Origin: Candidatus Nitrospira allomarina
GTDB lineage: Bacteria; Nitrospirota; Nitrospiria; Nitrospirales; UBA8639
DNA length: 64,000 nt
Reading direction: 5' to 3'
NCBI RefSeq assembly: GCF_032050975.1
Contig: NZ_CP116967.1
Location: forward strand, 4,337,001 to 4,401,000
Position 1 is the first letter of the stretch, and every line of letters begins with the position of its first letter. The notes under the pieces are model-generated. The model was not told the DNA's origin. It saw only the letters and a list, made by a program, of their open reading frames with translations, and did no database searches. Positions 27,329-29,976 of this stretch are shown piece after piece. Position numbers and translations under genes: made by a program.

Positions 27329-27575
27329 GCATTGGCTTCGCTAATCGCGAGGGTTTCCTACCATAGATCCACCCGCTCGCTATCAGCTGTTCTGTCCTGT
27401 ATCAGGTTCTATCTCCTTCACCCCCTTCCCTTCAACTTCTTCCTCCTCTAATCCGATACTTTCCATTACAGGCTTCTTTATTCGGTTTCAGAGCAGGTGA
27501 GGCTGAAAATGTGGGCCCATGGGTCATCCAATTTCAGGTTAGGCCCTCCCCAAACGAATTGAACAAGGAGAGATT

Positions 27576-27935
27576 ATGGCATCGTGTGCTTTAGCACCAG
27601 AAGATAGAAAGGCTTATGGAAAGGAAGTGGGTGAAATCCTGGTCAGGAATCATGGGAAGAAAAAGTTTTACTCGCCGCAAGAGGTCAAAACCGCATCATC
27701 ACAGAGTCGATTCGGAATGGACTGGCATTGTTGGGCCATGTGTCTCTATACCTCACCAAGTGACTTCGAGACCTACCACCGCTCGGTCGGCCAAACATGC
27801 GAATATGGTTCCATGAAAGCCGAGATGACTTTCGCGATGACAGATGGGGCATCCGAGTCCTGGTTTAATCTTGATGTCTCCTGGCTGGACTGGCCGGATA
27901 TCGAACTCTCATCCGTCTTCGATTTCCTGGACTAA
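27576..27935 (+). CDS. Conserved-looking hypothetical protein
   Basis: A 119-residue cytoplasmic protein with a good ribosome site (AAGGAGAG). I do not recognise the family with confidence. Visible blocks are GKKKFYSPQEVKTA, GMDWHCWAMCLYTSPSDFET with two cysteines, and an acidic Trp-rich C-terminus (WFNLDVSWLDWPDIELSS). It may be a small adaptor or immunity-type protein, but nothing in the neighbourhood supports a choice. It stands alone between the peptidase and the minus-strand DWTL gene. Confidence 0.65.
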   Translation: MASCALAPEDRKAYGKEVGEILVRNHGKKKFYSPQEVKTASSQSRFGMDWHCWAMCLYTSPSDFETYHRSVGQTCEYGSMKAEMTFAMTDGASESWFNLDVSWLDWPDIELSSVFDFLD

Positions 27936-28161
27936 CCCGATTCCACCTATCCGATCGGTGTCTCAAACCTGTCCTGCGCCACCGAACGCCTACGCAAAAT
28001 CATTACAGGCAAAAGTTGACCATCGCCGGCCCCGGCCTATGCATCATCGGGCCGGAGATTCGACTCCTCTATACGCCCCACCAACAACACCAGCTGTACG
28101 TGTCAAATTTCAATCTTCCAGTTAGAGGGTTCATTCCATGAGACCAGTTCGCACAAATAGG

Positions 28162-28197
28162 ACGGGAGAACGTGTCAGTGGGTCCGTCCTCCCGTTT
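28162..28197 (-). terminator. Possible terminator of the DWTL-repeat gene
   Basis: Inverted repeat ACGGGAG (28162-28168) / CTCCCGT (28189-28195) lies just beyond the stop, followed on the minus strand by CCTATTTG. Confidence 0.55.
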
Positions 28198-28204
28198 GGC
28201 GGAG

Positions 28205-28495
28205 TTAGGCTAAGGTCCAATCGACTTCTTCTTCATGGCTTCTATTATTGCTGGCCAGAGTCCAGTCGGTCTCATCATCCCCGGCCTTGTTCTTAGTTAA
28301 AGTCCAATCGGCCTCTTCTTCAGAGGTTCCATCCTTGTTCGCCAGTGTCCAGTCGGTCTCATCGTCGATTGAGGCGACACTCACGCTCCCACTCTTCAAT
28401 CCATATGGCCCAACAATTGGCATTGCCAATAGGCCCAGAACCGCTGCACCGACTGCGAAACCATACAGTTTTGATTTTGTGACAGTGAATTTCAT
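28205..28495 (-). CDS. Small exported protein with four DWTL repeats
   Basis: A 96-residue protein. The first 30 or so residues hold a membrane or signal segment (LYGFAVGAAVLGLLAMPIVG). The rest is four near-repeats of about 15 residues, each with an acidic run followed by Asp-Trp-Thr-Leu: DDETDWTLANK, EEEADWTLTKN, DDETDWTLASN and EEEVDWTLA. I know no described family with this motif. AAAGGAGG precedes the ATG. The gene lies downstream of an ECF sigma factor on the same strand, about 180 bases away, so it may be a target or partner of that regulator (inference). Confidence 0.78.
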   Translation of the reverse strand: MKFTVTKSKLYGFAVGAAVLGLLAMPIVGPYGLKSGSVSVASIDDETDWTLANKDGTSEEEADWTLTKNKAGDDETDWTLASNNRSHEEEVDWTLA

Positions 28496-28677
28496 TTTGT
28501 CCTCCTTTAGGTTTTAGGTTTATTGAACAAGTGATCGCCCGTGATCTTGTTTCTTGATTCCTTCGGTTTCCTTCCCATGCCTCATCCTGATTTTCCAGGA
28601 AAGGAGCGATAATGAAGCCGAAACCAGACATCAAGTATGTATTCAACCGTTTTAGTTTTTTCCCGGTTCCCATCAAA

Positions 28678-29484
28678 TCATGCACAATGCGTCAGAGTGG
28701 GATCGTGCGGGGGTCCCGGAGCTGACGATTCCATCCACGGCTCCAGGGCTTGACGGACTTTAGTGCGCGCCCGATGCAAGAGGACCCGCTGGTTGGACTC
28801 GGACAGGCTTAACATCCGGCAAACGTCCTCCGATTCTACCCCTTCTACGTCCCGCAGCTGGATCACTTGACGCTGCATGGCCGGAAGCGTCTGAATGACG
28901 GTGTAAATCCGCCTGACCATTTCCTTGTTCAACAGTTGTCGTTCCGGGGATACCTCTCCCTGTGACGAAATGATGCCGGAATAAGCTCCAGGCCATCCCT
29001 CTCCCCCAAGCATGGCCGTCGGGTCTTCAAGCTGATCCGTTTCCCCCTTTTCCGATCCGGAGGCTTTTCCGGGAAATTCCACATACCGGCTTTCCCGCAC
29101 TCCTTGCGTTTTGGCCCGATTAACCAGAATGCGAAAGATCCACGTTTTTAACGACGAGCGCCCCTCAAAGCGATGAATGCCTTTCAGCAACGCCATCCAG
29201 GTGTCTTGTACGACCTCTTCGGCCACGGCCTCCGAATTCACGAAGGTCATGGCGACTCGACGTAATGGTGAATGATAGCGTTCGACCAATTCCTTAAACG
29301 CTGTCTCGTCGCCGCGACGCACGCGTTTCACCAAGGCCGCTTCTGCGGGGTTGTCCTTTGCTTGACATTCGTGACGGTCATGGCCCTCGAATACCCGAAG
29401 CGCCGGGGTTGCGGGTTTCCTGAGCCGACCTGGCGCTTGTGCACTGAAAAGACCATCCATCGATTCTGCTGTGATTGTACTCAT
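28678..29484 (-). CDS. ECF-type RNA polymerase sigma factor
   Basis: A 268-residue sigma-70 family factor. Region 2 is seen as LVERYHSPLRRVAMTF through VVQDTWMALLKGIHRFEGRS and SLKTWIFRILVNRAK; region 4 as LPAMQRQVIQLRDVEGVES, DVCRMLSLSESNQRVLLHRA. An N-terminal extension of about 85 residues and a long linker between the regions make it larger than the usual 180-200. No membrane anti-sigma factor adjoins; instead a STAS protein gene ends 24 bases upstream. The start at 29484 has GGAGGAG upstream. Targets are unknown; the DWTL gene downstream is a candidate. Confidence 0.9.
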   Translation of the reverse strand: MSTITAESMDGLFSAQAPGRLRKPATPALRVFEGHDRHECQAKDNPAEAALVKRVRRGDETAFKELVERYHSPLRRVAMTFVNSEAVAEEVVQDTWMALLKGIHRFEGRSSLKTWIFRILVNRAKTQGVRESRYVEFPGKASGSEKGETDQLEDPTAMLGGEGWPGAYSGIISSQGEVSPERQLLNKEMVRRIYTVIQTLPAMQRQVIQLRDVEGVESEDVCRMLSLSESNQRVLLHRARTKVRQALEPWMESSAPGPPHDPTLTHCA

Positions 29485-29508
29485 GGAATGCTCCTCCACC
29501 GAAACCAT

Positions 29509-29876: not shown

Positions 29877-29976
29877 CAATACGGTTTTGTAATGGTTGAG
29901 TGATGAGTGCGTGGGCGGTATTCCCAATAATTTTTCCCAATATTTCGTGACGGTCACAACATATTGGGAATCTCTC

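Follow-up and report, generated by a model that had tools for sequence, protein, structure and literature searches.

A lineage-restricted family of acidic DWTL-repeat proteins in Nitrospirales and its neighboring envelope lipoprotein

Described repeat systems and the DWTL gene

Proteins of the EPYC1 and CsoS2 type are disordered, multivalent linear-motif scaffolds with repeated tryptophan motifs. The small protein described here, encoded within a 64,000-nucleotide stretch of Candidatus Nitrospira allomarina DNA (the window), resembles them in that a short conserved motif recurs between variable linkers but differs in being strongly acidic and, by its predicted features, exported or membrane-tethered. 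As in curli, where CsgA repeats go with CsgG, a repeat-protein gene adjoins a gene for a lipoprotein of predicted CsgG-like fold; unlike in curli, the units are acidic and 14-17 residues long, the tail is predicted to lack structure, and neither curlin nor CsgG Pfam profiles match. The partner lipoprotein, rather than the peptide, resembles lipoproteins of the CsgG/PelC/LptE/HpaA type: it has an invariant cysteine in a lipobox-like context, and its predicted fold is similar to theirs; Pfam and PDB yielded no sequence match to it.

The gene, P0001, encodes a 96-aa protein with the sequence MKFTVTKSKLYGFAVGAAVLGLLAMPIVGPYGLKSGSVSVASIDDETDWTLANKDGTSEEEADWTLTKNKAGDDETDWTLASNNRSHEEEVDWTLA. Its features are as follows.

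28205-28495, minus strand: DWTL-repeat gene P0001, 96 aa, matching the open reading frame exactly and supported by homologs
28501-28508, minus strand: Shine-Dalgarno sequence AAAGGAGG, 5 nt before the ATG
28412-28468, minus strand: hydrophobic segment, residues 10-28 (signal anchor or signal peptide)
28343-28354, minus strand: DWTL unit 1, residues 48-51
28298-28309, minus strand: DWTL unit 2, residues 63-66
28256-28267, minus strand: DWTL unit 3, residues 77-80
28211-28222, minus strand: DWTL unit 4, residues 92-95, one residue short of the C-terminus
28150-28201, minus strand: G+C-rich inverted repeat directly 3' of the stop codon (fold z -1.5)

The Shine-Dalgarno sequence is strong, and AAAGGAGG or GGAGG also precedes the start codons of the other DWTL loci compared. 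The original prediction, made from the letters of the window, described a membrane or signal segment followed by four regular acidic-aromatic DWTL units spaced about 15 residues apart, and both descriptions hold. The best 19-residue hydrophobic stretch spans residues 10-28 (Kyte-Doolittle mean 2.11), and the unit tryptophans lie at residues 49, 64, 78, and 93 (spacing 15, 14, and 15), with each DW preceded by three acidic residues and one spacer (DETDW, EEADW, and EEVDW types). Net charge is +3 on the N-terminal side of the hydrophobic segment and -12 on its C-terminal side, which suggests that the tail should face outwards. AlphaFold2, with low confidence (mean pLDDT 52.8), returned a helix at residues 8-23 and left the remainder without structure. 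The four-unit array is more than a chance arrangement: when residues 41-96 were shuffled, two or more DWTL motifs appeared in just 3 of 200,000 shuffles. In the DNA, units 1-2 and 3-4 form a 69-nt direct repeat, 81% identical, with the copies 87 nt apart.

The original prediction also named no described family for this protein, in line with the outcome of searches of Pfam, NCBIfam, and PDB sequences. The best Pfam match to P0001 was DUF3948 (E 0.22, 11.7 bits against a cut-off of 25), with nothing else at E <=1 and no curlin repeat profile of the kind expected of a CsgA or CsgB subunit; NCBIfam gave no match at E 1. The corresponding open reading frame at the standard locus described below (L042:8660-9007) had no Pfam match at E <=0.1, curlin included. 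Profiles of the DWTL protein and of the lipoprotein found nothing meaningful among PDB sequences (one match, at E 0.57), and a literature search on DWTL or DWTLA repeats returned no such protein among the matches listed.

Conservation and distribution of the family

A search of 146 relatives with P0001 matched 13 genomes at E <=0.1. Eight of these matches are real (E 1.1e-6 or better), while the five weak ones (E 0.037-0.099), along with one further weak match in genome G000, were rejected as homologs since they contain no DWTL repeat. The same eight genomes were recovered with a family profile among the 48 genomes of the taxonomic family, which is probably UBA8639 (lineage IV), as the order and passages on that lineage in PMC12342949 suggest. 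Seven carriers fall among the 20 genomes of the window's genus and one, G027, belongs to another genus; absence is uncertain in some of the negative genomes because these are incomplete drafts. A contig search with P0001 found one relative, in the Nitrospirales MAG OFTM334, very probably the same genome as G005. Across the phylum, a tandem-DWTL DNA pattern matched 4 of 395 genomes (G000, G010, G027, and G249) and its reversed control matched 2; the match in G249 proved to be a 21-bp tandem repeat unrelated to the DWTL genes. When 12 genomes were searched for the motif, three matches lay outside the family, none within a repeat protein, and nothing in phages, plasmids, or viral contigs matched the family. 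The DWTL genes constitute a genuine family restricted to a single narrow group of Nitrospirales. The search for the pattern and for conserved neighbors in Nitrospirota that had been proposed as a check found carriers in 8 of 48 family genomes and a standard locus in which the DWTL gene immediately precedes a lipoprotein gene.

Seven intact genes were used to define the anatomy of the repeat: the window copy, the other G000 copy, and those of G004, G005, G009, G010, and G027. They encode 3-6 units each and a total of 30 tryptophan sites, with the consensus E-E/D-E-V/T/A-D-W-T-L-A. Acidic residues occupy positions -5, -4, and -3 from the tryptophan at 27, 23, and 25 of the 30 sites, respectively, and the flanking residues are D at -1 (27/30), T at +1 (23/30), L at +2 (26/30), and A at +3 (25/30). 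Spacing between tryptophans is 14-17 residues and the linkers are variable. The first tryptophan is residue 49 in six of the seven proteins and residue 47 in that of G009. The array reaches the C-terminus, with five of the seven ending in W-x-L-A plus at most one residue; the G027 protein terminates in WTHV, and in G005 a WTLV is followed by continuation of the reading frame. Codons for the motif D, T, L, and A differ synonymously while the amino acids are kept, and substitutions among the genes are mostly synonymous (dN/dS 0.19-0.43 where computable, in 11 of 21 pairs, with 0.35 for G004-G010 and the remaining pairs saturated). Loss of the repeats in homologs had been named as grounds for abandoning the original prediction; the homologs retain them. 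Two further copies are broken, by a frameshift in G014 and by a stop codon within the helix in G018, each of which could be an assembly error.

The standard locus, its lipoprotein, and the window copy

The standard locus is represented by G000 C1:4449659 (L042), away from the window copy. A photolyase-related DPRP gene is followed there by the DWTL gene, the lipoprotein gene, and a gene for a 140-aa exported protein, and then by a LysR gene on the opposite strand and genes for HlyD, an outer-membrane efflux protein (OEP), and an ABC transporter. DNA similarity to this locus was found in G004, G010, G014, G018, and G027, extending through the HlyD-OEP-ABC region in G010, G014, and G027, and in weaker or partial form in G005 and G009.

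Eight of the 48 family genomes, exactly those that carry a DWTL gene, encode a closely matching lipoprotein (E 1.2e-79 or better). Elsewhere among the 48, it was found as a relative at 42% in G031 and as fragments in G003, so that with remnants counted it is present in 8 of 8 DWTL genomes versus 2 of 40 others (Fisher p 1.2e-7). Since the genes adjoin and the genomes are related, this co-occurrence is not independent evidence of joint function and may reflect shared inheritance alone. The ABC gene is more weakly linked to the DWTL gene than the lipoprotein gene is (7 of 8 versus 13 of 40, p 0.006). In G003 the DWTL gene, most of the lipoprotein gene, and the ABC gene have all been lost, while G031 has a broken lipoprotein gene and no DWTL gene, and may never have had one. 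The DWTL gene thus looks dispensable, being broken in G014 and G018 and absent from G031 despite the lipoprotein relative there. No DWTL-like gene was seen next to members of the wider lipoprotein family in 15 loci. The lipoprotein remnant of G031 is flanked, as in no other genome, by two large, similar-looking proteins (L083:38-3067 and L083:5273-7900), which we take to be DUF2309-like.

An alignment of 23 lipoprotein sequences has an invariant cysteine, C51, in a lipobox-like setting. The single-chain model of the lipoprotein (pLDDT 83.7, pTM 0.75) matched HpaA (E 9.6e-7) and CsgG (E 1.7e-6) in Foldseek, and VIA-align placed CsgG (Z 10.3, rmsd 4.2, 158 aligned) and PelC (Z 10.2, rmsd 3.5, 145 aligned) above FlgT, LptE, and TolB; PelC, FlgT, and others score similarly to CsgG. 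No Pfam family, the CsgG profile included, matched the lipoprotein at E <=0.1, and no PDB sequence matched it. A CsgG/PelC/LptE-like fold is predicted; the matches represent a common envelope fold and no single shared function. The model suggests that the lipoprotein resides in the outer envelope, where it may form rings or assist transport.

The sequence TATGTATTTGTYTAT, or a close form of it, lies about 90-120 bases upstream of the start codon in eight standard loci, and no match was found ahead of the window copy or elsewhere in the window. Exact matches number one each in G000, G010, and G014, all at the DWTL gene; allowing one mismatch added one in G010, and because the reversed control then gave 2, 4, and 4 matches in these genomes, only the exact matches carry weight. 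No further genes of a regulon were found in the three genomes. As G031 has TATTTGTTTAT ahead of its lipoprotein remnant in the absence of a DWTL gene, the element may belong to the leader of the lipoprotein, with the caveat that, when one mismatch is likewise allowed, shuffling this locus produces a match in 45 of 200 cases. Hairpins also fold 3' of the sister DWTL genes, as at 28150-28201, and are weakly supported (z -0.2 to -3.9 in the six loci folded with shuffles); a scan found no terminator-like site at this position.

The window copy stands in a different setting, which includes the following features.

27329-28729, no strand: stretch that lengthens the interval between the ECF and M20 genes to 1.4 kb, versus about 0.18-0.23 kb in G004, G010, G017, and G018
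27576-27935, plus strand: weakly matched DUF6559-like gene in the inserted stretch, 84% identical to a G005 copy that has no DWTL gene beside it
28678-29508, minus strand: ECF sigma factor gene (context), kept in relatives that lack this DWTL copy

Both flanks of the ECF-M20 interval align in G004, G010, G017, and G018, and the ECF side only in G016. The window copy lies within a stretch of about 1.2 kb that is missing from the interval in the first four, which makes its ECF neighbor incidental. The original prediction took this neighbor to suggest regulated expression; the link is rejected here, as relatives carry ECF-STAS-activator genes at the corresponding place with no DWTL gene, and the DWTL gene of the standard locus is not adjacent to an ECF gene. 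The window copy is a relocated duplicate, a second gene beside an unrelated ECF sigma operon. It has no lipoprotein gene next to it; expression driven by some other signal may occur, as the copy is undamaged and retains its ribosome site. The region between the start of the STAS gene and the stop codon of the sigma-54 activator gene contains a palindrome (29932-29971), about 40 bp long, that surrounds GTGACGGTCAC and is matched by blastn on both strands in four of five relatives' loci; it is a candidate site for an activator of the STAS-ECF operon.

Possible functions of the DWTL array

An evenly conserved motif, loose linkers, an export signal, and a place ahead of an envelope lipoprotein gene are together best fitted by a multivalent linear-motif protein. 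In the mechanism that we tentatively favor, at a probability of roughly 0.35, a small exported protein would be tethered by, or cleaved from, its N-terminal hydrophobic helix, and its acidic, disordered tail would present 3-6 copies of E-[ED]-E-[VTA]-D-W-T-L-A outside the cytoplasmic membrane. Several motifs at once might then dock on the co-encoded lipoprotein, or on a ring or complex of it, so that the DWTL protein would provide the envelope with a flexible, multivalent tether or scaffold. Points that count against docking are the absence of an adjacent lipoprotein gene from the window copy, the apparent dispensability of the gene (G014, G018, and G031), the low confidence of the peptide model, and the commonness of the lipoprotein's fold. 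The binding ladder is nevertheless the best, if unproven, of the three ideas offered in the original prediction. A more ambitious proposal, that marine-type Nitrospirales have an undescribed two-gene envelope module in which a CsgG/PelC-fold lipoprotein reads DWTLA motifs, as multivalent tether or as minimal curli-like export cargo, seems improbable on present evidence.

Extracellular assembly of the repeat protein into a curli-like matrix, after export through the CsgG-fold lipoprotein or by HlyD-TolC-ABC, would account for the CsgG chains among the best fold matches, for the HlyD, OEP, and ABC genes downstream in G000 with similarity through the region in G010, G014, and G027, and for the joint losses in G003. 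We consider it unlikely, given that CsgG and curlin profiles did not match, that the ABC gene is common to 7 of 8 DWTL genomes but also to 13 of 40 others, that curlin does not resemble an acidic DWTLA repeat, that the intact sequences contain no RTX-type repeat (GGxGxD), and that the N-terminal helix suggests the Sec route. Near-identical units, variable linkers, and copy numbers of 3-6 would likewise suit a precursor from which proteases release several DWTLA peptides, perhaps modified, as signals or bacteriocin-like products. Such a precursor or processing-enzyme substrate, also raised in the original prediction, is a doubtful candidate: the linkers vary and offer no constant cleavage site between units, no maturation enzyme was found in the subset of neighboring open reading frames given to Pfam, and the M20 peptidase encoded close to the window copy is also present at the site where the DWTL gene is absent. 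Because nonpolar tails of the W-T-L-A sort suit tail-specific proteases, the W-x-L-A endings of five of the seven intact proteins might be read by such a protease or by a PDZ domain, with trimming exposing the next unit, as a timer or decoy for envelope proteolysis. That internal units are also kept, that G027 ends in WTHV, and that no linked protease was found in the standard locus make this quite improbable. An anti-sigma role is already largely refuted and very improbable; the protein has a single helix and its gene lies on the same strand downstream of the ECF gene, but the approximately nine residues before the helix are too few for a cytoplasmic sigma-binding domain, and the ECF operon and the DWTL gene occur apart in the relatives and at the standard locus.

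These results give an unannotated gene family of Nitrospirales a defined motif, E-E-E-V-D-W-T-L-A, and a probable partner, with natural variants of three to six units and natural losses of the gene at hand. Should the lipoprotein bind the motif, it would show a CsgG/PelC-type lipoprotein working with a simple repeat peptide.

Other small exported proteins are encoded near the DWTL locus. Three of them (L042:10200-10622, L001:6635-7042, and L001:13026-13424) have a PKGF-like stretch in common, and the first had no match in Pfam. In OFTM334, a small protein encoded 2.6 kb from the DWTL gene (L001:7113-7412) resembles the DWTL protein in being exported and acidic with a tryptophan-containing repeat, PDSEWALEDQP, but is separate in sequence; it is present in 1 of 146 genomes and was rejected as a wider family. 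The DWTL frame of OFTM334 itself (L001:10001-10426) continues for about 60 residues beyond the last unit, perhaps after an insertion.
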